DNA of 50,245 nucleotides, taken from assembly GCF_947494055.1 (NCBI RefSeq), contig NZ_CANLTR010000025.1, forward strand, positions 1-50,245, in the 5' to 3' direction. The notes under the pieces were generated by a model. It ran no database searches. It was not told the origin of the DNA and saw nothing but the letters and a program-made list of their open reading frames with translations. Positions 25,491 through 40,626 of the stretch are shown here, piece by piece; position 1 is the first letter of the stretch, and every line of letters begins with the position of its first letter. A program made the position numbers and the translations under genes. The stretch is from an uncultured Jannaschia sp. (GTDB lineage Bacteria > Pseudomonadota > Alphaproteobacteria > Rhodobacterales > Rhodobacteraceae).

Positions 25491-26555
25491 CTAGCTTTGC
25501 GCGACTGGCGCCTTGAGGACCCAACGAAGTCCCTCGGCGCGGAACTCCAGCTCCGCGGCCCCTCCGATCTCCATCGAGGTGTAGGAGCGCAGGAGTCGCG
25601 TCCCGAAGCTGTTTCGCGTCGGCGTCCCCACGGGCGGCCCGCCCCGTTCCTCCCATTCGAACGTCAGCGTTCCGTCCGCGAGATGCCACCGGATCGTGAC
25701 GACGCCCTCGTCGCGGGACAGCGCGCCGTATTTGGAGGCGTTCGTCGCGAGTTCGTGCAACGCCATGGCCAGGGCCAACCCGGCCTTCGACCACAGGTGC
25801 AGCTCGGGCCCGTCAATCCGCAGGTTCGAGCCGGCGAGGGTCCGGTAGGGCGCCATCACGTTCTCGACCAGAGCCCGCAGGGTCCCAGGATGCTCGGCAT
25901 GCCCGTTAAGCATCTGATGCGCCTCGGCCAGAGCACGGGTCCGCGCCTCGAACGCGTTCGCGAACGTCTCCAGATCGTTCGCCTCGCGCCGGGTCAGGCT
26001 CAGGATGCTCAGGATTTTCGCAAGCAGATTCTTTACCCGGTGGTCGAGCTCGGAGAGCAGAAAGCTCTGGTGCCGCTCCTTATGGCCCAGATCTTCGATC
26101 TGGTCGCGAACCTTGAGTTGCCGCCTCCGTGACCCGATCAGCGTGACGAGCGCGGTCCGGAGGGTCTGGGTTCGGGTGGGCCGCTGCAGGACGATGAGCT
26201 CAGTGCGTTCCAGCGCCCGTTCCGGAAGCCGCAGCCCCGGCGGCGTTCGCCCCGCATTGGCGACGAGCGCCAGGATCGGCAGCGCCGACCACGAGGGCTG
26301 GCCTTCGAGATGCCGCAACAGGGCCTCGCCCATGGCCCGATCGAGCGCTTCTTCCGTTACGATCAGCGAGACGCAATCCTTCGATATCTCCGCGGCAAGC
26401 CCGTCGACCCCGGCGACTACGACGGGATTGGCCCCTGCCTCCCGCGCGATTCCGGCCAGAATATCGGCGTCCCGACCGAGCGGCGCATAGATAAGGACGT
26501 TCGACCCTTCGGCACGGGGCGCCGTCGCCGACGGTCGCTCCTCGACGGCGATCAT
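25491..26555 (-). CDS. HWE-type histidine kinase with receiver-like N-terminal domain
   Basis: A 354-residue soluble kinase. Residues about 15-140 look like a degenerate receiver (NVLIYAPLGRDADILAGIAR, LIVTEEALDRAMGEAL, VLQRPTRTQTLRTAL). The phosphoacceptor His is in LSELDHRVKNLLAKILSILS, the N box is ALHELATNASKYGAL, and WEERGGPPV with SFGTRLLRSY matches the HWE/HisKA_2 kinases of alphaproteobacteria. No transmembrane segments are present. It lies 3 bases downstream of the KaiC-like gene and is surely in the same transcript. Confidence 0.9.
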   Translation of the reverse strand: MIAVEERPSATAPRAEGSNVLIYAPLGRDADILAGIAREAGANPVVVAGVDGLAAEISKDCVSLIVTEEALDRAMGEALLRHLEGQPSWSALPILALVANAGRTPPGLRLPERALERTELIVLQRPTRTQTLRTALVTLIGSRRRQLKVRDQIEDLGHKERHQSFLLSELDHRVKNLLAKILSILSLTRREANDLETFANAFEARTRALAEAHQMLNGHAEHPGTLRALVENVMAPYRTLAGSNLRIDGPELHLWSKAGLALAMALHELATNASKYGALSRDEGVVTIRWHLADGTLTFEWEERGGPPVGTPTRNSFGTRLLRSYTSMEIGGAAELEFRAEGLRWVLKAPVAQS

Positions 26556-26558
26556 GCC

Positions 26559-28004
26559 CTACACCACGGCGAGGTAGGGGCGCGAAGCCTTCCGCGAAGG
26601 CACGACATCGACGCTCCGATCCCCTATGATCAGTTCCCGGACCCGCTTCTCATGGTCCCCCTGCCGTTTCTTCAGGCAGGTGACCGTCCGCCGCAGGTCG
26701 TCACCGGCCTCGTCGTTCCGCAGCAACAGGGCGACGTCCGCAAAATAGCTGATGTCGAGGTCGCTGTGGTTGTTCCCTTTCAGGAGGCCATGCTGTGTTA
26801 CCGTAAGAAAGGTCAACACGTTGCGACGCGAGAGGTAAGTCAGGAGCGTATGCAATTGCGCGATGAGGTCGGCCCCGTTCGGATGGGCGCCGAGGAACCC
26901 GCTCAGGGAGTCGATGACGACGATCTCCGCCCCCTTCTCCTCGACCGTGTCGACGACCGTCTGGATGAACTCGCCCGGCGACATCTCAGCCGGCCCGAAA
27001 TGGCGGAGGATCAGCTTGCCGTCGGCCTGCTGCTGCTCCAGCTGGAACCCGAGATCCTCGGACCTGCGACGGAAGATCGCCGGCCGTTCCTCGAACAGGA
27101 ACATCGCCGCGACGCGGTCGTCCTGGGCCGCGGCGTTGGTATAGGCCGTGCACAGGGTCGACTTTCCCGTCCCGGAATGACCAGCGATCAGGCATGTCGT
27201 TCCAAGAAGCAGACCGCCGCCCAGCATCTCGTCGATCCCGTCGATTCCGCAGAGGATCTCCTCGTCCGACAGGATGTCCTCGGCGTCCCGCGGGATGACG
27301 CGCGGAAACACGGACAACCCGCCCGTCCGGATCGTGAGGCTGTGATTCCCCTCGGTGAAGACCTGACCGCGCATCTTTCCCACGTGGACCTGCCGCATGG
27401 TCGCCCCGTAGGCGGGGTTCTCCAACTCGAGGAAGATCGTGCCATTCACGATCCCTTCGAGCTGGCGGTCCCCCAGCGTCTCGTCGGAATAGTCCAGGGC
27501 GAGCGCCGTGGCGCCGAGACGCGCGACCGTATCGCGCAACAGCAGCAGTTCCCGGCGATAGCTCAACGGATCCTGCGCCAACAGGCGCATCTCGAAGAGC
27601 GAGTCGATGACGACCCGTTCGGCACCCGATTTCGAGAGCAGCGTCTCGAGCTTGTGCCCGGCCTCGGAGAGTTCCGCATCGGACGTGTCGATAACCGTCT
27701 GCCGGTCCCCGAGGCCGGGCGCGAGGTTCACGGCCGAGATCTCCTCGATCGCGATCCCGTCCAGATCGAAACCATGCGACGCGGCAATTCGCTCGAGATC
27801 GGACCGATTCTCCAACATCGTGACGAACAGCGTCCGCTCGCCACGGCGCTGTCCTTCCAACAGGAATTGCAGTCCGAGGGTCGTCTTCCCGGTGCCCGGC
27901 GCCCCACCGACGAAGTAAAGCCCACGGGGCGGAAGCCCGCCACGAAGGACGTCGTCCAGCCCAGGCACGCCCACGGGGACGAGAGCATCCCGATCTTGAT
28001 CCAT
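26559..28004 (-). CDS. KaiC-like two-domain RecA-fold ATPase
   Basis: A 481-residue protein with two tandem KaiC domains. Walker A motifs are GAPGTGKTT (about residue 35) and GHSGTGKST (about residue 275), and Walker B appears twice as VVIDSL. The catalytic Glu pair is kept in the second domain (FLFEERPAIF), whereas the first domain reads VTMLENRSDL and has lost one of the pair, so the two halves probably differ in activity. No kaiA or kaiB is present. The gene is followed by an HWE kinase and divergent from the Phd-PAS protein, so a signalling role is more likely than a clock. Confidence 0.92.
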   Translation of the reverse strand: MDQDRDALVPVGVPGLDDVLRGGLPPRGLYFVGGAPGTGKTTLGLQFLLEGQRRGERTLFVTMLENRSDLERIAASHGFDLDGIAIEEISAVNLAPGLGDRQTVIDTSDAELSEAGHKLETLLSKSGAERVVIDSLFEMRLLAQDPLSYRRELLLLRDTVARLGATALALDYSDETLGDRQLEGIVNGTIFLELENPAYGATMRQVHVGKMRGQVFTEGNHSLTIRTGGLSVFPRVIPRDAEDILSDEEILCGIDGIDEMLGGGLLLGTTCLIAGHSGTGKSTLCTAYTNAAAQDDRVAAMFLFEERPAIFRRRSEDLGFQLEQQQADGKLILRHFGPAEMSPGEFIQTVVDTVEEKGAEIVVIDSLSGFLGAHPNGADLIAQLHTLLTYLSRRNVLTFLTVTQHGLLKGNNHSDLDISYFADVALLLRNDEAGDDLRRTVTCLKKRQGDHEKRVRELIIGDRSVDVVPSRKASRPYLAVV

Positions 28005-29610: not shown

Positions 29611-30678
29611 TCAGGCAGGGCTGGGCGCGGAACGTCCGATACGGTCGATCCGCCGGCACAAGGCATCGGCAGCCGTCAGGGAGCGGCCCGTCGTGCGTGC
29701 CATCTGCGGCAGGACCATCCATTCCAGCGCCCAAGCCGCGCCCGACCGCTCCTGTTCGTGGATCAGAGCCTGATGCATGGCCGAGACTTGCACGGCATTG
29801 AACCGCGCCAGCGTCACGAGCAGTTCGGCCAGTATGGGGTTCTGCTTGTGCTTCATTGCCGAGGAGCCGCCCCCGCCGGTCAGGACGATCTCGTCGACAC
29901 CCTGCTGGGCCATGAGGCAGATGTCCTGCCCCATCTTGCCCAGCGTGCCCGAGATCAGCGACAGGCAACCGGCATACTCGGCGATGCCGTCCCGCATGGC
30001 ATGCCAGGAGACCGGCACAGCCGCGAGATGCAGCTCTGCCGCGACAGAGGCCACGATGGCCTCCGCGTCGGTGCCGAGTTCGGATCGGTCGCCGACCGCT
30101 CCGCCGATCTGGGCCCGCTCGACGATCGGCCGAAGCCTCGAAATCCGGGCGCGATGGTCTTCGAGAGGCAGCATCCAGCTCCGAATCCTGTCGGCCACGG
30201 TGATCGGTAGCGCGGCCTGCATCCGCGTACGTCCCATGAGCCGGTCCTCGCCGAATGTCTCCACCAACCGGGACAAGGTCGCCGACAGGGCATGGAGGCG
30301 TGTATCGAGCAGGTTCGAGGTCGCCCGCAGGGTCAGGACGAGCGCCGTATCTAGGACGTCCTGCGACGTCGATCCGGTGTGGATCATTACGGGATCGAAC
30401 GCGCCCTGCCGCAACCGCTCGACGAGGGCAGGGACGGGCAGCCCGTCGCGCGCGGTTCCCTCCCGCAGCGACGCGATGTCCGGCGACGTGGCGAGGATGG
30501 CGCGGGCTGTCGTATCTGCCACGTCCGGATCGATCCGGCCGACCCGGCCCAACGCGCGGGTCCAGGCGGCCTCGAAGGCCAGCATGTGCCGCATCTGCGC
30601 GTCGGGGGACCAGAGATCCGCCATCTCGTCGTCGCCGAACAGGCCGCCGAGCCAGGGATGGTCGAAGATTCCGGTCAC
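29611..30678 (-). CDS. pcaB: 3-carboxy-cis,cis-muconate cycloisomerase
   Basis: A 355-residue enzyme of the aspartase/fumarase superfamily that converts 3-carboxy-cis,cis-muconate to 4-carboxymuconolactone. The superfamily signature GGGGSSAMKHKQNP is intact; MIHTGSTSQDVLDTALVL and EIVLTGG support PcaB. GTG at 30678 is taken as the start because GTGA overlaps the pcaD stop by 4 bases and the protein then begins with TGIFDHPWLGGLFGD. It is the last gene of the pob-pca operon. Its length is shorter than the roughly 450 residues of pseudomonad PcaB but as often seen in alphaproteobacteria. Confidence 0.92.
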   Translation of the reverse strand: MTGIFDHPWLGGLFGDDEMADLWSPDAQMRHMLAFEAAWTRALGRVGRIDPDVADTTARAILATSPDIASLREGTARDGLPVPALVERLRQGAFDPVMIHTGSTSQDVLDTALVLTLRATSNLLDTRLHALSATLSRLVETFGEDRLMGRTRMQAALPITVADRIRSWMLPLEDHRARISRLRPIVERAQIGGAVGDRSELGTDAEAIVASVAAELHLAAVPVSWHAMRDGIAEYAGCLSLISGTLGKMGQDICLMAQQGVDEIVLTGGGGSSAMKHKQNPILAELLVTLARFNAVQVSAMHQALIHEQERSGAAWALEWMVLPQMARTTGRSLTAADALCRRIDRIGRSAPSPA

Positions 30679-31463
30679 GACAGTGATCCGTGAAATTCCG
30701 TCAGCAGCGCCGTCAGGTGCCCCGGCGCCTCGATGCAGGGCAGATGTCCCACGTCCGTGAGGCAGACGAACCTCGACCCGGCGATCATTCGCGCCAGCCC
30801 TTCGACGACTGCCGGCGGCGTCGCCTCGTCCGCGGACCCGGCAACGCACAGCGTCGGCACGTGCAACATGGATGTCGTCCTTGACAGATCGGCGACGCAG
30901 ATCGCCTCGCACGTGCGGGCATAGCCCTCGGCGGGCGTTCGCGCGAGCATCTGGCGCCAGCCCGCGCGTTCGACCGGATGGGCGGCCGCCCATGACGGCG
31001 AAAACCAGCGCGCCACGACGGCATCCGCAATCGCCTCGATCCCGTCCGCCCGAACGGCCGTGATACGGGGAGCCCACGTCTCTTCACTGCCGATCCTCGC
31101 GCCGGTGTTGCACAGCATGAGCCCCGCGACGAGATCGGGCCGTATCGCCGCCAAAGCCTGCGCAATCATGCCGCCGACCGAGACACCGCAGATCAACGCC
31201 GCCTCCAGACCGAGATGGTCCATGAGGTCGGCCAGGTCGGATGCGAGGGTCGCGATGTCGATCGGCCCTGTCTGCGAGAGGCCGTGGCCGCGTTTATCCA
31301 TCGCGAGGGTCGGAACGCTCGGGTCCAGTTTGCGACGGACGTCATCCCATATGCGCAGGTCGGTGCCGAGCGAGTTGGCGAAGACGATCGGTCGATTCCC
31401 GGCCACGCCCATGGCGTGATCGTAGTGCAAGACGACGTCGCGGGGTCTGGCGAACTGCACCAT
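30675..31463 (-). CDS. pcaD: 3-oxoadipate enol-lactonase
   Basis: A 262-residue alpha/beta hydrolase that turns 3-oxoadipate enol-lactone into 3-oxoadipate. FANSLGTDLRIWDDV is characteristic of PcaD; GVSVGGM is the nucleophile elbow, the acid lies in GSADEATPP and the His in DVGHLPCIEAP. The start overlaps nothing but lies one base after the stop of the pcaI remnant, and the 3' end overlaps pcaB by 4 bases. Confidence 0.93.
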   Translation of the reverse strand: MVQFARPRDVVLHYDHAMGVAGNRPIVFANSLGTDLRIWDDVRRKLDPSVPTLAMDKRGHGLSQTGPIDIATLASDLADLMDHLGLEAALICGVSVGGMIAQALAAIRPDLVAGLMLCNTGARIGSEETWAPRITAVRADGIEAIADAVVARWFSPSWAAAHPVERAGWRQMLARTPAEGYARTCEAICVADLSRTTSMLHVPTLCVAGSADEATPPAVVEGLARMIAGSRFVCLTDVGHLPCIEAPGHLTALLTEFHGSLS

Positions 31464-31464
31464 C

Positions 31465-31619
31465 TCAGACCTCGCGGAACACGAGATTACCCGTATCGTC
31501 TGCCTTCGAGGCCTTCACGACGCAGCGATCGGCGACGAGACCGCGCTCGAGAATGCAGGTCTTCCCGTCGAACCGCGATGACTGGCGCCCCGGACGAGGC
31601 ACCCGTATCCCCGGCGGGC
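31465..31619 (-). pseudogene. pcaI remnant (3-oxoadipate CoA-transferase subunit A, internal fragment)
   Basis: The stretch encodes RFDGKTCILERGLVADRC followed by VVKASKADDTGNLVFREV and a stop. It lines up in register with the internal segment of PcaI/ScoA CoA-transferase A subunits (family pattern: FDGK-x-x-x-LE, then ADVALIKA-x-KAD-x-x-GNL-x-R). The N-terminal roughly 110 residues, including the glycine-rich CoA loop, and the C-terminal part are missing, and no pcaJ follows. It is squeezed between the BKACE gene and pcaD, with a 16-bp tandem duplication at its upstream edge. About 50 codons survive. Confidence 0.78.
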
Positions 31620-31624
31620 GCAAC

Positions 31625-31656
31625 CCATCGCGAACATCACCCATCGCGAACATCAC
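31625..31656. repeat. 16-bp tandem duplication at the BKACE/pcaI-remnant junction
   Basis: Two perfect copies of CCATCGCGAACATCAC (31625-31640 and 31641-31656) followed by a partial third copy that reaches into the BKACE stop codon. This looks like a scar of the event that removed the rest of pcaI. Confidence 0.8.
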
Positions 31657-32526
31657 TCATCGCGACCGCAATCCCAGGATCGCGCGGGCTTCGGCCGGGT
31701 CGGCAGGACGGCGATCGTGACGGGCGGCGATCTCCACGGCCCGTTCCACGAGGGCGGCGTTGGAGGCCGCCAGCGTCGTGCGGTCCATCCGCACATTGTC
31801 CTCCAGCCCGGTTCGGAGGTGGCCGCCGGCCTCGGCCGCCCAGTCGTTGAGCTTCGCCTGTCCGGCGCCGATCCCGGCCGCGCACCATGGCGCTTCGCCG
31901 AAGAGGTATCGCTTGGTCGCGAGCATGGCCTCGAAGGCGTGGCGGTCCACGGGCATCGCGTTCCGGACGCCCATGACGAACTGGACGTAGGGGCGGCGCT
32001 CGGGATCGCGACCGTCCGGCGCGGTCGGCAGACGCCCGTCCGTCCACATCGCATGGGCCTGGTAGAGATGGCTCAGGTCGAAGCACTCGACCTCGGGCAC
32101 GACGTTGTGGGCCGCCATCTGGGAGGCCAGCCAGTCCACGAGGTCCGGCGGGTTCTCGTAGACCCGCGTCGGGAAGTTGTTCGAGCCCACCGAGAGGCTG
32201 CACATGTCGGGCCGCAGCGGGATGCAGCCGCCCCGGGCCTGCCCCGCGCCGGACCGGCCCCCGGTCGAGAGCTGGACGATCATGCCGGGGCAATGCCGCT
32301 CGATCCCCTCCTTAAGGGCCGCGAACCGGTCGGGGTCCGAAGAGGGCGTCTCGTCGTCGTTGCGTACATGGCAGTGGGCGATCGCGGCGCCCGCCTCGAA
32401 GGCGGCCTGCGTGCTTTCGACCTGCTCGGCCACGGTGATCGGAACGGCCGGATTGTCGGATTTGCGCGGCACGGAGCCGGTGATGGCGACGCAGATGATT
32501 GCGGGCGTCGATACGGTGTCAGACAT
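31657..32526 (-). CDS. Beta-keto acid cleavage enzyme (BKACE, DUF849)
   Basis: A 289-residue TIM-barrel enzyme of the BKACE/Kce family. It opens with IICVAITGSVPRKSDNP; the zinc-binding His-x-His is in AIAHCHVRNDD, and the conserved GLEDN is in TGLEDNVRMD. Family members use acetyl-CoA to cleave a beta-keto acid to acetoacetate and a shortened acyl-CoA. Inside a protocatechuate operon the obvious substrate is 3-oxoadipate, giving succinyl-CoA plus acetoacetate; this is inference. It overlaps pcaG by 8 bases, so it is co-translated, and sits directly upstream of the pcaI remnant. Confidence 0.9.
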   Translation of the reverse strand: MSDTVSTPAIICVAITGSVPRKSDNPAVPITVAEQVESTQAAFEAGAAIAHCHVRNDDETPSSDPDRFAALKEGIERHCPGMIVQLSTGGRSGAGQARGGCIPLRPDMCSLSVGSNNFPTRVYENPPDLVDWLASQMAAHNVVPEVECFDLSHLYQAHAMWTDGRLPTAPDGRDPERRPYVQFVMGVRNAMPVDRHAFEAMLATKRYLFGEAPWCAAGIGAGQAKLNDWAAEAGGHLRTGLEDNVRMDRTTLAASNAALVERAVEIAARHDRRPADPAEARAILGLRSR

Positions 32527-33145
32527 CGAAGAAAACCGTTTCCTTCGGACCCTGCAGGTGGATGTCGAAGCGCCAGACGTCGTCCTCCCCCCCCCGCGCC
32601 ATCAGGGTGGCGCGGCGCTCCCCGTGCTCGACCCGTGCCAACAGCGGATCCTCCTCGTTGGCCGGATCACCCTCGAAATAGACGCGGGTATAGAGTCCCA
32701 CGTTGATGCCGCGCGCGACGATCCAGAGGCCGATATGCGGCGCCTGCATCCGCCCGTCCGGCCAGACCACGCGCCCGGGCCTCACGGTCTCGAAGCGGTA
32801 GAGCCCGGTCTCGCCGTCGGTCGGCTGCCGGCTCCAGCCGTCGAACGCGGGATCCGACCCGTCCTCCCCGGCGAACCGTCCGTTCGCATCCGCCTGCCAC
32901 AGCTCGAGGAGCGCGTCGCGCAGCGGGGCACCGGTGCCATCGAAGACGCGCCCCTCGACGGTGATGGCTTCCCCGACATGACCGTCCCGCCGGCACGAAG
33001 CGCCGAGGTCGCGGCCGCCATACATGCCTTCGAGGCCGGCGAAGCTCGGCACGCAGCCGATATGGACATAAGGGCCACCGGTCTGGCTGGCGGTCTCGGG
33101 CAGCCAGCCAAGCGCATTGGCCCAGGGATGGGATCTTCCTTGCAT
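32519..33145 (-). CDS. pcaG: Protocatechuate 3,4-dioxygenase alpha subunit
   Basis: A 208-residue alpha subunit of the iron(III) intradiol dioxygenase that opens protocatechuate to 3-carboxy-cis,cis-muconate. LLELWQADANGRFAG and YRFETVRPGRVVWPDGRMQA, then PHIGLWIVARGINVGLYTRV, match PcaG; the Fe ligands of the beta subunit are absent, as expected. It starts directly after the pcaH stop and overlaps the BKACE gene. Confidence 0.95.
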   Translation of the reverse strand: MQGRSHPWANALGWLPETASQTGGPYVHIGCVPSFAGLEGMYGGRDLGASCRRDGHVGEAITVEGRVFDGTGAPLRDALLELWQADANGRFAGEDGSDPAFDGWSRQPTDGETGLYRFETVRPGRVVWPDGRMQAPHIGLWIVARGINVGLYTRVYFEGDPANEEDPLLARVEHGERRATLMARGGEDDVWRFDIHLQGPKETVFFDV

Positions 33146-33895
33146 CTAGAGGCCCTCCATCCGGTTCTCGAACGGCGTCTGGCGCCGTCCCCGCAGCACG
33201 ATGTCGAAGCGCCATGTGCAGGCGTCCATCGGGATCGTGGCGCTCTTGTCGAAGCGCGCCACCAGACGGTCGACCGCGGCGGCATCGGGAACCGTGTGCA
33301 GGATCGGGCAATGCGGGATCAGGGGATCGCCCTCGAAATACATCTGCGTGATCAGGCGCTGTGCGAAAGCCTCGCCGAAGACGCTGATGTGGATATGCGC
33401 GGGCCGCCAGTCATTGGCCCGGTTGGGCCAGGGATAGGCGCCCGGCTGCACCGTGCGGAAGCTGTACCAGCCGTCGTCGTCGGTCATGCACCGCCCGCAC
33501 CCGCCGAAATTGGGGTCGAGCGGGGCGAGGTAGCCGTCGCGCTTGTGACGGTAGCGACCGCCCGCATTGGCCTGCCACACCTCGATCAGCGCCCGCGGCA
33601 CCGGCCGTCCCGACCCGTCGAGCAGACGGCCCATGACGACGATGCGCGGGCCGATCGCGCTCTCCCCCGGCGCGGCGTAATTGGTCAGCAGGTCGTCGTC
33701 GCCCGGTCCCACGACGTCCGGCCCGAAGATCGGTCCCGTCGCCTCGGTGGGCGAGGCATCGAAGGAGATCGGAGCCAGCCGCGGGCTGCGCAGGACGGAG
33801 GTCTTGTAGCCGGGCGCATGGGCCGGCGGGTGGATCGAGAGGTCCCGCTGCACCAGGGCGCCCTGCGCCCCCGGCCGCTTGATCATCGTGCGCAT
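33146..33895 (-). CDS. pcaH: Protocatechuate 3,4-dioxygenase beta subunit
   Basis: A 249-residue catalytic subunit that binds the non-heme Fe(III). The ligand residues are visible: Tyr in DDGWYSFRTVQPG, Tyr in GAYPWPNRAND, and His-x-His in WRPAHIHISVFG. The intradiol signature LIEVWQANAGGRYRHKRDG is present. ATG at 33895 has a very good aaggagg 7 bases upstream and overlaps the end of pcaC by 13 bases. It works as a complex with PcaG. Confidence 0.96.
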   Translation of the reverse strand: MRTMIKRPGAQGALVQRDLSIHPPAHAPGYKTSVLRSPRLAPISFDASPTEATGPIFGPDVVGPGDDDLLTNYAAPGESAIGPRIVVMGRLLDGSGRPVPRALIEVWQANAGGRYRHKRDGYLAPLDPNFGGCGRCMTDDDGWYSFRTVQPGAYPWPNRANDWRPAHIHISVFGEAFAQRLITQMYFEGDPLIPHCPILHTVPDAAAVDRLVARFDKSATIPMDACTWRFDIVLRGRRQTPFENRMEGL

Positions 33896-34269
33896 GCGGC
33901 ATCCTCCTTCGCAAACACCTCGCGGGCCGCCTTCAGCGCAGCGTTCGCGCGGGGCACGCCGGCATAGATCGCGACATGCTGCAGCACCTCGGCGATGTCC
34001 TCGCGGCTCGCGCCGGTGCGCCGGGTCGCCTCGGCATGCATGGCGAACTCCTCGATATTGCCGAGCCCTGCCAGAAGCGCCAGCGTCAGCATCGAGCGTT
34101 CGCGGCGGGTCAGGCGGTCCGACGCCCAGACGGTGCCCCACGCGGCCTCGGTGATGAGCTCGCGGAACGGGGCGTCGAACCCGTCGCCCTCGGCGGTCGA
34201 GCGGTCCACATGCGCGTCGCCCAGCACGGCGCGCCGCACCGCCTCGCCCGTGCTTCGCCTGTCGGTCAT
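33883..34269 (-). CDS. pcaC: 4-carboxymuconolactone decarboxylase
   Basis: A 128-residue alpha-helical protein of the carboxymuconolactone decarboxylase family, converting 4-carboxymuconolactone to 3-oxoadipate enol-lactone. WGTVWASDRLTRRERSMLTL, EFAMHAEATRRTGASREDIA and VLQHVAIYAGVPRANAAL match PcaC. ATG at 34269 follows gaggagac. It lies between dctM and pcaH. Confidence 0.93.
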   Translation of the reverse strand: MTDRRSTGEAVRRAVLGDAHVDRSTAEGDGFDAPFRELITEAAWGTVWASDRLTRRERSMLTLALLAGLGNIEEFAMHAEATRRTGASREDIAEVLQHVAIYAGVPRANAALKAAREVFAKEDAACAR

Positions 34270-34322: not shown

Positions 34323-35636
34323 TCACGCGATCAGGAACAGGGAGATGGCCGGGAACGCCGCGATTAGGATCACCCTCAGGATATCGCTCACGACGAACCA
34401 CGTCACGGCCCGATAGGTCTGACCGATGGGCGTTTCCGGGTCCATCGCGTTGATGATGAACAAGTTCAGGCCGACGGGCGGCGTAATCAGTCCGACCTCC
34501 ACGATGATGAGGACCAGGATGCCGAACCAGATCGCCATCTCCTCGGTGGTCAAACCGAAATCGAGGGTGGTCATCACCGGGTAGAAGATCGGGACCGTCA
34601 GCAGGATCATCGACAGGCTGTCCATCACGCAGCCGAGCACGAGGTAGACCAGCAGGATGATCGCCAGCACGAGCCACGGTCCGAAGCCCTGCTCCACCAC
34701 GAAGGCGGACAAGGTCTGCGGCACGCGTGCAAGGGCTAAAAAGCCGTTGAAGAAGCCCGCGCCCAGCACGATGAAGAAGATCATCGCGGTGCTGGCGGCC
34801 GTGGCGACGACGGCCTCCCGCGCCGCGCCCCAGCCGAGCTTGCCCGAACCGAGCGCCACCAGCCCCGTGCCAAGCGCGCCGACCGCCGCGCCCTCCGTGG
34901 GGGTGAAGACGCCCACGTAGATGCTGCCCACCACGGCGAGGAAGATCAGCGCCGTGGGCCAGACCTCGGCCAGCGCGCGCATCCGGGCGCTCCACGGCAG
35001 GCGCGGCGCGGTGCCCGCGGAGCCGGGATGGACGCGGACGTAGAACGCGATGACGAGCCCGTAGGTGATGGCCGCCAGCACGCCCGGCACGAAGGCCGCG
35101 AGAAACAGCTTGGCGATGTTCTGCTCGGTCAGCGAGGCATAGATCACCAGTACGATGGAGGGTGGGATCAGGACGCCGAGCGTGCCGCCGGCCGCGAGCG
35201 TCGCGGTGGACAGACCGCCCGAATAGCCCGCCCGCCGAAGCTCGGGCAAGGCGACCTGACCCATGGTCGCCGCCGTCGCGAGGGAGGAGCCGCAGATCGC
35301 CCCGAAGCCCGCGCAGGCGCCGATGGCGGCCATCGCCGTGCCGCCCTTGCGGTGCCCGAGGAACGCCTCGGCCGCCTTGAAGAGCGACCGGCTCATGCCC
35401 CCGATCCCCGCGAGGTAGCCCATCAGGAGGAACATCGGCACGATCGACAGGAAATAGTTCGAGTAAGCCCCGAACACCTCGGTCTTGAGGCGTGACAGGG
35501 CCATGCCGGGCGATCCGGTGACCAGCCAGCTTCCGCCCAGACCGCAGATCAGCATGGCGAGCCCGATCGGCGCCCGCAGGAAGATCATCAGAAGAAGGAC
35601 GGGGATCGACCAGAGGCCGATCTCGACGGTGCTCAT
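34323..35636 (-). CDS. dctM: TRAP transporter large permease, DctM subunit
   Basis: A 437-residue polytopic membrane protein with about 12 helices. FLRAPIGLAMLICGLGG at the start, YFLSIVPMFLLMGYLAGIGG and AAGGTLGVLIPPSIVLVIYA are typical DctM segments, and PTEGAAVGALGTG fits the second half. ATG at 35636 overlaps the dctQ stop (ATGA). With DctP and DctQ it forms a Na+-driven importer, here probably for 4-hydroxybenzoate or a related aromatic acid because of its place inside the pob-pca operon. Confidence 0.94.
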   Translation of the reverse strand: MSTVEIGLWSIPVLLLMIFLRAPIGLAMLICGLGGSWLVTGSPGMALSRLKTEVFGAYSNYFLSIVPMFLLMGYLAGIGGMSRSLFKAAEAFLGHRKGGTAMAAIGACAGFGAICGSSLATAATMGQVALPELRRAGYSGGLSTATLAAGGTLGVLIPPSIVLVIYASLTEQNIAKLFLAAFVPGVLAAITYGLVIAFYVRVHPGSAGTAPRLPWSARMRALAEVWPTALIFLAVVGSIYVGVFTPTEGAAVGALGTGLVALGSGKLGWGAAREAVVATAASTAMIFFIVLGAGFFNGFLALARVPQTLSAFVVEQGFGPWLVLAIILLVYLVLGCVMDSLSMILLTVPIFYPVMTTLDFGLTTEEMAIWFGILVLIIVEVGLITPPVGLNLFIINAMDPETPIGQTYRAVTWFVVSDILRVILIAAFPAISLFLIA

Positions 35637-36151
35637 GTTCCTGCCTCCGGCGCATCGGATGTCCGCCGTGTGCCGCGCAGGCCCCGCCAGGTGACGAGCG
35701 CACCCGTCAGCACCGCGATCGCGGCGGGCGGAACGCAGGCCGCGTAGGCCCACCAAAGCGGAATGCGCAGCATGTAGGACTGGTCGTTGTAGTCGAGGCG
35801 TTCCTCCAGCCCGAGCACGAGCCGCCAGAGGATGAGCGCGAGGGCGAGGGTCAGCGCGGCGTCCCAGAACGCCGCGAGCCCCGTGCGGAGGCGGTCCGGA
35901 AGGTGCGACGTGGCGAGGTCGACCACGGCATGCGCGCCACGCAGATGCGCCAGCGGCAGGAATGCGAAGACCACGAAGGCCGTGCCGAGCTCGATCAGCT
36001 CGAAATCCCCCGGCACGGGGCCGGTTCCGACGAACGGGCCCGACGCGCGTCCCGCGATGCTGATGCAGGTCATCGCGATCAGCGCCGCCAGTACCGCGCC
36101 GCCGATCAGCGCGGTGAGCACCGCCAGTCGCTCGATGAACGTTCCGATCAT
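35633..36151 (-). CDS. dctQ: TRAP transporter small permease, DctQ subunit
   Basis: A 172-residue membrane protein with four helices (LAVLTALIGGAVLAALIAMT, GTAFVVFAFLPLAHLRGAH, LTLALALILWRLVLG, YAACVPPAAIAVLTGALV). The segment LRGAHAVVDLATSHLPDRLR is the family's conserved loop. ATG at 36151 is chosen over 36178 because ggaggtgag immediately precedes it. It overlaps dctM by 4 bases. Confidence 0.9.
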   Translation of the reverse strand: MIGTFIERLAVLTALIGGAVLAALIAMTCISIAGRASGPFVGTGPVPGDFELIELGTAFVVFAFLPLAHLRGAHAVVDLATSHLPDRLRTGLAAFWDAALTLALALILWRLVLGLEERLDYNDQSYMLRIPLWWAYAACVPPAAIAVLTGALVTWRGLRGTRRTSDAPEAGT

Positions 36152-36202
36152 CTCACCTCCCAGAGCGAGGGCCCGCACCCTTCGATGCGGGACCCGCGCG
36201 TG

Positions 36203-37231
36203 TCAGTCCGAAGCGGCATCGACGGCGGATCGGGCTCCGTCCACCAGGGCCTGTCCGTCGAGCCCGGCCGTGTCGGCCTCCGCGATCCAGGCGTCGATGA
36301 CCGGCTGCGCTGCATCCTTCCATTCCTGTGCCTGCGCGGTCGTCAGGGTGACGATGTTGTTGCCCATTTCCACGGCCGCCTGCCGCGGACCCGCATCCGC
36401 CTCCTGCGTCGCGGCCCCGGCCTGCGCCGAGAAGGCCGCGCCGGTCTGCTCGTCGAGGACCGCCTTCAGGTCATCGGGCAGCCCGTCATAGACCGACTGG
36501 TTCATCGCCAGGAGGAACGTCGCGACATAGAGCGCCTCCTCTGGGAACTCCGTGTGGTTCGAGACCAGCTCCGAGGAGCGGATCGCGCCCGTCACCTCCC
36601 AGGGGATGATGGCGCCGTCGATCACGCCGCGGGTGAGGGACTCGGCCACCTGCGGTACCGGCATCCCGACCGCGTTTCCGCCCAGCTCGGTGATGAGCTG
36701 GCCGGTCACGCGCGTCGGCGTCCGCAGGTCGAGGCCCTGCATGTCGGTCACCTCGACCACCGGCTCGGACGTATGGATCACGCCCGGCCCGTGGACCCAG
36801 AGGCCGAGCACCTTCACGCGGTCGAACTCGTCGCCGAACGCACCGTCCTCGTACATCCCCCACAGCGCGGCGGAGGCGGCTTCGGCATCGCTCACCATGA
36901 ACGGCAGCTCGAACACCTCGGAGCGCGGGAAGCGGCCGGGCGTGTAGCCGGGCAGGGTCCACACCACGTCGGCCACGCCGTCGGCCGCCTGGTCGAACAG
37001 CTCGGGCGGGCGGCCGCCGAGTTGCATGGCGGGATAGTGCTCGAAGGCGATCCGCCCGTCCGAGGCCTCGGTGACCCGCTCCATCCAGGGGATCAGCACG
37101 TCGCGCGGAACGGCGGCCTGTTCCGGCAGGAACTGGTGCAGCCGCAAGGTCACGTCCTGGGCCCAGGCCCCGGCGGCGGTGCAAAGGCCGATCGCAGTGC
37201 CGAGCAATCCGGCTCGAAGGGTGATGGTCAT
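36203..37231 (-). CDS. dctP: TRAP transporter substrate-binding protein, DctP subunit
   Basis: A 342-residue periplasmic binding protein with a Sec signal peptide (residues 1-24, cut at AGAWAQ-DVTLR). LRLHQFLPEQAAVPRDVLIP and FEHYPAMQLGGRPPELFDQA, GVADVVWTLPGYTPGRFPRS, LDLRTPTRVTGQLITELG (substrate-Arg region) and GVIDGAIIPWEV fit the DctP family, nearer to the aromatic-acid and other-carboxylate TRAP groups than to C4-dicarboxylate DctP. It stands between pobA and dctQ. Confidence 0.93.
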   Translation of the reverse strand: MTITLRAGLLGTAIGLCTAAGAWAQDVTLRLHQFLPEQAAVPRDVLIPWMERVTEASDGRIAFEHYPAMQLGGRPPELFDQAADGVADVVWTLPGYTPGRFPRSEVFELPFMVSDAEAASAALWGMYEDGAFGDEFDRVKVLGLWVHGPGVIHTSEPVVEVTDMQGLDLRTPTRVTGQLITELGGNAVGMPVPQVAESLTRGVIDGAIIPWEVTGAIRSSELVSNHTEFPEEALYVATFLLAMNQSVYDGLPDDLKAVLDEQTGAAFSAQAGAATQEADAGPRQAAVEMGNNIVTLTTAQAQEWKDAAQPVIDAWIAEADTAGLDGQALVDGARSAVDAASD

Positions 37232-37269
37232 GCGCGTCCTCCCATATTGGCGCGTTTGTCCGGCGGGCG

Positions 37270-38520
<1,251 letters not shown>

Positions 38521-38540: not shown

Positions 38541-39590
38541 TCAGGTGAGACGCGGAGTCGATGCTTTCCGCCGACAACCGAATGCGGTCAGCATACCCAG
38601 ACCAGCAAGCATCATGGGTAAGGCAGCCGGCACCGGAACCGGCGCGGGTTGAACGGCGAACGCGGCGTCCATGAAATCGACGACGTAGGGAACCTGCTCC
38701 TCCCAACCGGGACCACCGTGTCCGAGACCTTCGACGATCCGAAGCTGCAGGTCAGGCGATCCGCCCTGCGCGTCGATCGCATCGAAGAGGCGAACCGACT
38801 GCAGGTAGGAGACCAGAGGGTCTCCGTCGCCATGCATGATCAGGAAGGCGGGAAGAACGGTATCTTCCGGCAAGAAGGACGCGAAAACCGCCGGGCTGGC
38901 GGCGTCAGCGAGGCCCCGGTTGACGAGATCGCCCATGCCGTCCGTTTCGCCGAGGCAAGCACCGACGAGCAGCGATTCCGGCGAGTCGCAGGCCAGATGC
39001 TCGATGAAGTCCAAATCAGGCGAGGACGCGTCGTCGTCCGCGTCCATCTCGATCAGATCGGCCGGCGGATACCACGTAACCGTGGCTGCAAGACGCGTGT
39101 CCGGATCGTCGGCCAGCGCCAAGCCGGCCCAGGCAGACAGGTGCGCTCCGGCCGACGCGCCGAACGATGCGACCCGGCTGCCGTCGTAGCCGTACGTCGC
39201 GCCACTATCACGCACGAAGGCGAACGCCTTGGTGATGTCTTCGAGCTGTCCGGGCCACGTCGTGCCGTTCGCCGTATCAGCCGATGGCGGCCCGTCGTAC
39301 GTGGTCAGGCGATAGTTCATCGACGCCACCGCAATGCCGGCGTCGAGGAACTCCTGAACGCCGGTCGGGCTCGACTTGTCGCCGGCGTACCAGGCCCCGC
39401 CATGGATCCACATCACGATCGGGGGCGCGTCGACCCCGTCCGGAACGTAGAAGTCGAGCGTCTGACGTTCAGCCGGTTCGTAAGGACCATAGCTCACATC
39501 CGCCACGGTCGGCACCGTCGCCGCATGCGCCATCCCCGCCGTCGCGCAAACCGCGGCAGAACATACCAGTTTCCGCATATCCATTCTCAT
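38541..39590 (-). CDS. Secreted alpha/beta hydrolase with VPxPA-type C-terminal sorting signal
   Basis: A 349-residue esterase of the BD-FAE/carboxylesterase type. A signal peptide (MRKLVCSAAVCATAGMAHA) is followed by HGGAWYAGDKSSP (oxyanion His-Gly-Gly), nucleophile elbow GASAGAH, acid in MHGDGDPLVS and His in GLGHGG. The C-terminus has VPVPAALPMMLAGLGMLTAF then CRRKA: the proline motif, hydrophobic helix and basic end of PEP-CTERM-like (VPLPA/VPxPA) sorting signals handled by an exosortase/rhombosortase-like system. It intervenes between pobA and pcaQ and is not an evident part of the pathway; feruloyl-type ester hydrolysis feeding pobA is possible but unproven. Confidence 0.83.
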   Translation of the reverse strand: MRMDMRKLVCSAAVCATAGMAHAATVPTVADVSYGPYEPAERQTLDFYVPDGVDAPPIVMWIHGGAWYAGDKSSPTGVQEFLDAGIAVASMNYRLTTYDGPPSADTANGTTWPGQLEDITKAFAFVRDSGATYGYDGSRVASFGASAGAHLSAWAGLALADDPDTRLAATVTWYPPADLIEMDADDDASSPDLDFIEHLACDSPESLLVGACLGETDGMGDLVNRGLADAASPAVFASFLPEDTVLPAFLIMHGDGDPLVSYLQSVRLFDAIDAQGGSPDLQLRIVEGLGHGGPGWEEQVPYVVDFMDAAFAVQPAPVPVPAALPMMLAGLGMLTAFGCRRKASTPRLT

Positions 39591-39694: not shown

Positions 39695-39710
39695 ATAACC
39701 CTATGGTTAT
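39695..39710. promoter_or_regulatory. PcaQ-type operator ATAACC-N4-GGTTAT
   Basis: ATAACCCTATGGTTAT matches the PcaQ motif ATAACC-N4-GGTTAA described in Sinorhizobium and Agrobacterium at 11 of 12 defined bases. It overlaps both candidate starts of the LysR gene (39703, 39709) and lies 105 bases from the esterase start. No second copy was seen before pobA. Confidence 0.65.
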
Positions 39711-40626
39711 GCATCACGGGATCAAGCTGCGCCATCTGCGAGCCTTTCTCACAGTGGCCGATACCGGCTCCGTCACCGCGGCGGCGGACAGGATCGGTGT
39801 GTCGCAGCCTGCCTTGTCCAAGACCTTGAGCGAGCTTCAGACGATGCTGGACGGCACGCTGCTCGAACGGTCCGGTCGAAGGACCACCCTGTCACCGATA
39901 GGGGAGCGCTTTCGAAGACACGCTCTGCAGGCGCTGCAACACCTCGACGCCGGGGCCGACGCGATCTCCCTTCCACGGAGGACGGAGCGGGTCTCGGTCG
40001 GGGTGCTGCCGACCGTGGCAGGGCGGTTCTTTCCCGAGGCTGCGCTCGACTATTCGAAGCTGCGACCGAACATCGTCATCCGCACCGAGACCGGACCCCA
40101 TGCCTACCTGCTCGACCGCCTGCGCGCCGGCGCAATCGATCTGATGGTCGGTCGAATGCCCGCGAGTTCCGAAATGCCGGGCCTGAGCTTCGACTGGCTC
40201 TACGACGAGGACATCGTGCTCGCCGCTCGAGCCAACCACCCCCTTCTGGAGATCTCGCCACGCGACGCCATCGCCCGTTCGAGTCTCGTGATCCCGCCGA
40301 AGGGCGCGATCATTCGACGTGCGGTGGACGAGTATCTCCTGTCCCTCGGGATCACCGAGCCCGACATCCGAATCGAGACCGTTTCGCTCGCGATGGCCTC
40401 CCAGATCCTCGCCGCATCGGACATGCTCTGGTTCATCTCGCGTGGCGTGATCGACCGTGAGTTGAAGCGCGGCACGCTGTCGACGTTCCACATCGACGTT
40501 CCCTATCTCTCCGGCGCCGTCGGCACGACGCGCCGGAACGAAGGCCAGCAGGAACCGAACCTGGCTGAACTATTGGACGTCCTTCACAAACTCGCGCGCA
40601 ATCGAGTACAGACAAATGGTTCTTGA
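39703..40626 (+). CDS. pcaQ: LysR-type transcriptional regulator, PcaQ
   Basis: A 307-residue LysR regulator. The winged helix (IKLRHLRAFLTVADTGSVTA, AADRIGVSQPALSKTLSELQ) is followed by the effector domain starting VSVGVLPTVAGRFFPEAAL; the segment DLMVGRMPASSEMPGLSF is very like PcaQ. PcaQ activates pca genes in response to carboxy-muconate/oxoadipate intermediates. The start is uncertain: ATG at 39703 or 39709 fits homology but has no ribosome-binding site and overlaps the PcaQ box; ATG at 39673 is also in frame. Unlike usual arrangements it is not directly divergent from the pca operon. Confidence 0.88.
   Translation: MVMHHGIKLRHLRAFLTVADTGSVTAAADRIGVSQPALSKTLSELQTMLDGTLLERSGRRTTLSPIGERFRRHALQALQHLDAGADAISLPRRTERVSVGVLPTVAGRFFPEAALDYSKLRPNIVIRTETGPHAYLLDRLRAGAIDLMVGRMPASSEMPGLSFDWLYDEDIVLAARANHPLLEISPRDAIARSSLVIPPKGAIIRRAVDEYLLSLGITEPDIRIETVSLAMASQILAASDMLWFISRGVIDRELKRGTLSTFHIDVPYLSGAVGTTRRNEGQQEPNLAELLDVLHKLARNRVQTNGS

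Follow-up and report, generated by a model that had tools for sequence, protein, structure and literature searches.

A decayed scoA beside the BKACE gene of a protocatechuate operon suggests a BKACE, SCOT and thiolase ending of the 3-oxoadipate pathway

The window, meaning the whole stretch of 50,245 nucleotides analysed here, corresponds to C25, one of the 276 contigs that make up a genome of 4.75 Mb. Its minus strand carries, in this order, pobA, dctP, dctQ, dctM, pcaC, pcaH, pcaG, BKACE, a 63-codon open reading frame (ORF), pcaD and pcaB, with a PcaQ-like regulator oriented divergently. The features are listed by increasing position.

29611-30678, minus strand: pcaB (PRK05975 451.7 bits, cut-off 371; TIGR02426 334.9, below its 355.75)
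30675-31463, minus strand: pcaD (TIGR02427 292.6 bits, cut-off 255.85)
31465-31656, minus strand: 63-codon ORF with the scoA relic (core 31471-31590, corresponding to TIGR02429 positions 133-172; ScoA-type by residues and DNA)
31624-31655, minus strand: tandem 16-bp direct repeat, two identical copies (31624-31639 and 31640-31655) that separate the BKACE stop from the relic
31657-32526, minus strand: BKACE, 3-oxoadipate:acetyl-CoA acetyltransferase family (NF053568 453.6 bits, cut-off 350; PF05853 297.2, cut-off 24.8)
32519-33145, minus strand: pcaG (TIGR02423 213.4 bits, cut-off 126.25)
33146-33910 (extent of the scanned frame, within which the gene starts some codons further in), minus strand: pcaH (TIGR02422 348.3 bits, cut-off 296.4)
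33883-34269 (start by eye from the frame), minus strand: pcaC (TIGR02425 168.5 bits, cut-off 155.7)
34323-35639, minus strand: TRAP large permease dctM (TIGR00786 281.7 bits, cut-off 268.45)
35633-36178, minus strand: TRAP small permease dctQ (PF04290 55.6 bits, cut-off 28.3)
36203-37249, minus strand: TRAP substrate-binding protein dctP (NF037995 87.2 bits, cut-off 50)
37270-38439, minus strand: pobA (TIGR02360 635.9 bits, cut-off 538.7)
39709-40626, plus strand: pcaQ-like LysR regulator, divergent (TIGR02424 277.7 bits, slightly below the cut-off of 303.8)

The operon with pobA, pcaHG, pcaC, pcaB and pcaD described in an earlier note on this DNA is borne out by a model match for every gene, that of pcaB being to PRK05975. 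The intact BKACE (DUF849) gene reported there is likewise present, with a full-length match to PF05853 and 8 bp shared with pcaG, whose end lies at 32519. The 63-codon ORF is an open frame whose stop is placed 1 base ahead of the pcaD start, and the 16-bp tandem repeat is possibly, at a guess, the scar of a deletion. A BD-FAE-type esterase gene (38541-39590) lies between pobA and pcaQ; its product, whose C-terminal tail resembles by eye a PEP-CTERM sorting signal, might supply phenolic acids to the pca operon. Elsewhere in the window, a KaiC-like two-domain ATPase gene adjoins a histidine kinase gene, presumably related to HWE-type kinases (25491-28004), with a PAS-like ORF upstream, and the contig end (48384-50240) holds an ORF with an HTH_38 domain that is IS30-family transposase-like by eye.

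The window BKACE scores far above the cut-off of NF053568, the curated NCBI equivalog model for 3-oxoadipate:acetyl-CoA acetyltransferase. The protein is full length, aligns with 2y7d and displays the motifs HCHVR at 51 and RTGLEDN at 238, and its gene has a pca context; no protein feature sets the window copy apart from the modelled family, whose activity is predicted for it. Among 82 BKACE compared, the HxH-type motif is found in all 82 and the RTGLEDN-type motif in 74, the HxH and the Glu of RxGxEDN being the residues of the metal site in this family. Solved homologues match at E 1e-103 to 1e-125, and the closest chains among them (3fa5, 3chv and 3no5) entered the structure database under the labels uncharacterised or DUF849. 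From the NF053568 model and the gene context, the window BKACE probably converts 3-oxoadipate and acetyl-CoA to succinyl-CoA and acetoacetate, which agrees with the reaction proposed in the earlier note as the most likely one. This cleavage is an already catalogued activity, not a new one, and pca operons with BKACE are in print. The assignment of 3-oxoadipate:acetyl-CoA acetyltransferase activity to BKACE reportedly originates from Bastard et al. 2014, and Buchan et al. 2004 are said to have pointed out that roseobacters conserve an ORF after pcaG. COG3246 genes are described as often lying near protocatechuate dioxygenase genes, with the suggestion that one COG3246 protein might cleave beta-ketoadipate (PMC6449761), and BKACE groups are tabulated by substrate (PMC4922564).

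A second BKACE, 66% identical to that of the window and scoring 484.5 bits on NF053568, is encoded on contig C31. Its operon (L013, 7877-12064) comprises a maleylacetate reductase-like gene, belonging to the family of solved maleylacetate reductases, a hydroxyquinol dioxygenase-like gene, nearest to hydroxyquinol-type 1,2-dioxygenases, BKACE, intact scoA and intact scoB. Hydroxyquinol dioxygenase and maleylacetate reductase also lead to 3-oxoadipate. In 80 named loci, the best of 471, the BKACE neighbourhood is of pca type in 43, hydroxyquinol-type in 9 and neither in 28. On a Sulfitobacter indolifex plasmid (L203, 1701-6597) BKACE is followed by pcaD, and catC, a gene of the catechol branch, is nearby; the BKACE ending may serve that branch as well. 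In the tree of the 82 BKACE the window copy joins that of Palleronia rufa (pca) at 100/97, and both join Oceaniovalibus (hydroxyquinol) at 99/89; supported branches require the hydroxyquinol label to change at least 7 times over 10 rows, and the label clusters about as it does when shuffled (26 of 500 as low). BKACE thus accompanies routes whose common product is 3-oxoadipate, a context that supports 3-oxoadipate as its substrate. Close BKACE relatives are also found outside the family, at L066, L071 (Granulosicoccaceae) and L072 (under an Oceanobacillus record title), in some cases followed by scoA and scoB, through possible horizontal transfer or mislabelling of records.

Over 40 residues the core of the 63-codon ORF matches subunit A of CoA-transferases (E 2.4e-6). 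The earlier note had recognised this remnant, which stands, and had called it pcaI, which does not. The name of the matching family, TIGR02429, spans pcaI and scoA, and its scores separate the two. Of 36 residues compared, the fragment shares 17-26 with 23 ScoA proteins as against 14-17 with 12 PcaI proteins (a seventh PcaI-like protein matched it at 13 residues in the first comparison) and 11-14 with five transferases of a third group, while the group profiles give it 42.1 bits for ScoA, a group then still including 5 distant members, versus 27.8 bits for PcaI. An identity as pcaI is rejected on these residue and profile comparisons. The fragment DNA aligns with the scoA on contig C24 of the same genome at a score of 121, compared with at most 24 in 50 shuffles, and 85 of 102 bases are identical. 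The fragment is altered at 4 of the 17 positions that are invariant in the 23 ScoA. Its differences from the C24 scoA fall as 4/4/9 over the codon positions, with twelve intact comparisons with C24 ranging from 4/2/6 to 8/2/17, all on few sites. In the 900 bp that follow BKACE in the window, a search gave no scoA or scoB pieces beyond this one core. The residue and DNA comparisons and the altered invariant positions thus identify the fragment, as far as sequence can, as a decayed piece of scoA, the gene for subunit A of succinyl-CoA:acetoacetate CoA-transferase (SCOT).

A Roseobacter MAG (L047) displays the same order, pcaC-H-G-BKACE-[slot]-pcaD-pcaB, and its slot is occupied by scoA and scoB, both complete; the slot is empty in Palleronia rufa (L018, 8 bases from BKACE to pcaD) and Palleronia sp. 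LCG004 (L202, 3 bases). With gaps this short, the two Palleronia operons can do without the ORF. This, with the alteration of residues invariant in ScoA, makes retention of the ORF as a small translated gene very improbable; one such use would be translational coupling to pcaD, which its open frame and the closeness of its stop to the pcaD start would suit. Another MAG (L022, 7834-8040, with an N run inside the gene) has two scoA pieces between BKACE and pcaB, which could be either another scoA relic or an error of assembly and are given little weight. The BKACE-scoA order recurs in C31, L023, L042, L047 and L071, and as far as the contig limit in L025 and the locus limit in L115; in genome G323 the matches are separated by 11 bases, and in G039 pcaB comes in between. 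Where a transferase gene adjoins BKACE it is best read as the partner of BKACE, and the scoA relic of the window is likely the remnant of such a partner, not of the classical gene thought to have been replaced. A scoA directly behind BKACE is uncommon, occurring in 5 of 80 loci (the best of 471), plus the pieces in L022, and this counts against the route proposed below.

The remainder of the genome contains two intact scoA genes, on C24 (235.2 bits on TIGR02429) and C31 (232.0 bits). With intact copies remaining, a co-operonic scoA would be dispensable, and the relic is probably its leftover, lost through redundancy. The nearest solved chains to the C31 ScoA (3cdk, 3rrl and 3dlx) are named SCOT or succinyl-CoA:3-ketoacid CoA-transferase. 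The C31 transferase is over the cut-offs of TIGR02429 and TIGR02428, models that both also cover PcaIJ; it resembles SCOT and is predicted to be one. The search for pcaI and pcaF elsewhere, which the earlier note had called for, found no PcaI-type gene (TIGR02429 E <= 1e-80) in the contigs of the genome and no pcaF over the TIGR02430 cut-off, the best match (365.8 versus 597 bits) fitting acetyl-CoA C-acetyltransferase models best. C1 and C6 carry thiolase candidates, of which that of C6 passes an acetyl-CoA C-acetyltransferase model at 672.3 (cut-off 514). No acetoacetyl-CoA synthetase in the genome exceeds the cut-off (255.8 versus 520.9) of a model that was passed in 0 of 14 control genomes and so has no positive control.

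From these genes the following ending can be proposed for the breakdown of lignin-like aromatics. PobA, PcaHG, PcaB, PcaC and PcaD would convert 4-hydroxybenzoate through protocatechuate to 3-oxoadipate, which BKACE would cleave with acetyl-CoA to succinyl-CoA and acetoacetate. SCOT (ScoA/ScoB of C24 and C31) would then turn succinyl-CoA and acetoacetate into succinate and acetoacetyl-CoA, and an acetoacetyl-CoA thiolase, such as that of C1 or C6, would split acetoacetyl-CoA with CoA to two acetyl-CoA. The net reaction, 3-oxoadipate and CoA to succinate and acetyl-CoA, would equal that of PcaIJ and PcaF, with cleavage and CoA transfer swapped in order. The products of BKACE are the two substrates of SCOT, and a transferase is thus still needed unless a synthetase activates the acetoacetate; according to PMC6365646, acetoacetate released by a BKACE has to undergo activation first, through either a CoA-transferase or a synthetase. 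The earlier view that BKACE makes the transferase unnecessary is corrected here on stoichiometry and on the synthetase search: the transfer step would instead have moved to acetoacetate. The substrates in this strain and the path of flux are what we infer from the gene content, and the whole route, BKACE, then SCOT, then thiolase, with the relic as a dispensable co-operonic scoA, is considered probable.

The ending was followed across 295 genomes, one per genus label, whose family is inferred to be Rhodobacteraceae/Roseobacteraceae from identical matches (G066 with Palleronia rufa, L018; G217 with Silicimonas algicola, L021). Per-genome calls over cut-off were taken from best E-values, with totals that agree with the tallies: BKACE in 203, a pcaF-model thiolase in 185, pcaG in 172 and a PcaI-type gene, defined as TIGR02429 E <= 1e-80 (at least 309.9 bits), in 48. 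The 50 PcaI-type genes of these 48 genomes score 309.9-375.1 bits, compared with about 199-246 bits for intact ScoA-type and related genes, and at least 30 of them, at 326.7-375.1 bits, have a pcaF match no more than 2.5 kb away. Three of 15 PcaI-type genes compared (L164, L189 and L190) are 56-58% like the PcaI reference, and the class is thus counted generously. BKACE is found in 157 of the 172 pcaG genomes; 27 of these also have a PcaI-type gene and the other 130 do not. Among the 15 pcaG genomes without BKACE, 7 have a PcaI-type gene (Fisher p 0.013 versus BKACE carriers) and 8 have none, so that other endings exist; 7 of these 8 carry the thiolase. A pcaF-model thiolase is missing from 43 of the 157 genomes with pcaG and BKACE. 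Over all 295 genomes the thiolase accompanies BKACE above expectation, with no exclusion (137 of 203 versus 48 of 92 others, p 0.014), and among pcaG genomes the link is not significant (114 of 157 versus 13 of 15, p 0.36); the thiolase model also catches genes far from CoA-transferases, with 1 of the 30 top-scoring loci having one within about 1.5 kb.

With 130 of 172 pcaG genomes carrying BKACE and no PcaI-type gene, the BKACE ending is widespread and not a local event, and a recent local replacement is rejected. The earlier note had seen such a replacement in place, with BKACE newly substituted for pcaIJ and the fragment as the dead pcaI. The fragment does adjoin BKACE and does match a family named for pcaI as well as scoA, but the residues and DNA favour ScoA, the slot of L047 holds an intact scoAB and the distribution is broad, and this explanation now has hardly any probability left. 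The earlier note is thus corrected on what the relic is, on what the transferase does and on how far the replacement reaches.

The gene order has known parallels. Methylobacterium pca clusters hold a DUF849/kce gene between pcaG and pcaB (PMC8963497, PMC12379598), and pcaHGBL with kce enabled growth of M. extorquens on protocatechuate (PMC12379598). The window operon is similarly of the pcaHG-BKACE-pcaB type without pcaIJ or pcaF and, in contrast to those clusters, has pobA and a TRAP transporter in line, separate pcaC and pcaD and the scoA relic behind BKACE. Ruegeria pomeroyi DSS-3 (L201) shares the series pcaQ, pobA, pcaC, pcaH, pcaG and a gene annotated '3-keto-5-aminohexanoate cleavage protein', although the stretch shown, unlike the window, is without pcaD and pcaB behind BKACE and without TRAP genes. 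Compared with the canonical PcaIJ-PcaF ending the net reaction would be unchanged, in a genome that yielded neither a PcaI-type gene nor a pcaF over cut-off. The deoxyribonate route of Pseudomonas simiae also proceeds from a BKACE through acetoacetate activation to a thiolase, with a different BKACE substrate, a keto-deoxyribonate (PMC6365646).

The 2025 genetics of Roseovarius nubinhibens bear on the family at large. According to PMC12442348, the aromatic pathway of marine roseobacters has been called incomplete for more than 20 years, and similarity was the means by which pcaIJ was looked for. Candidate pcaB or pcaI mutants did not grow on 4-hydroxybenzoate, consumption by the pcaI strain being severely repressed, and for the leftover consumption Bastard et al. 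are cited. Single mutants in pcaF or ISM_RS10035 grew unchanged and the double mutant reached a lower final density (PMC12442348). The authors assign a CoA-transferase found by PcaIJ similarity as pcaIJ and have other thiolases stand in for pcaF. This mutant pattern is predicted by the order BKACE, SCOT, thiolase and also by ScoA/ScoB pairs acting as PcaIJ on 3-oxoadipate, with general thiolases replacing PcaF and BKACE left as a side route or with another substrate. The need for a PcaIJ-like transferase on 4-hydroxybenzoate and the thiolase cover for pcaF (PMC12442348), as well as the two intact scoA genes of the present genome, would suit such a use of ScoAB. However, it leaves without a role a BKACE that matches the curated 3-oxoadipate model behind pcaG and occurs in 157 of 172 pcaG genomes, the C31 ScoA resembles solved SCOT and the R. 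nubinhibens genetics fit BKACE, SCOT and thiolase too, and ScoAB acting as PcaIJ is accordingly considered unlikely.

In the database genus to which L048, a MAG of Roseovarius, belongs, BKACE is present in 43 of 60 genomes and a PcaI-type gene in 2, and the R. nubinhibens 'pcaIJ' is therefore probably ScoAB, judged from these relatives. The literature search, in which most subscription papers lay outside, found, in the passages covered, nothing that ties SCOT to a pca-linked BKACE. That BKACE, SCOT and acetoacetyl-CoA thiolase form the default ending in the family, with PcaIJ-PcaF as the exception, and that roseobacter 'pcaIJ' genes (e.g. ISM_RS03130/03135 of Roseovarius nubinhibens) encode a SCOT acting on acetoacetate, is slightly favoured over its negation. 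The new and testable point is that roseobacter pcaIJ may be SCOT.

A CoA-transferase relic adjoining BKACE need not be the gene that BKACE displaced. If roseobacter 'pcaIJ' is indeed SCOT, its identity would explain why 'pcaIJ' is needed while pcaF is dispensable. If BKACE, SCOT and thiolase are the usual ending, pcaIJ labels in roseobacters would need correction and genomes without pcaF would be explained.
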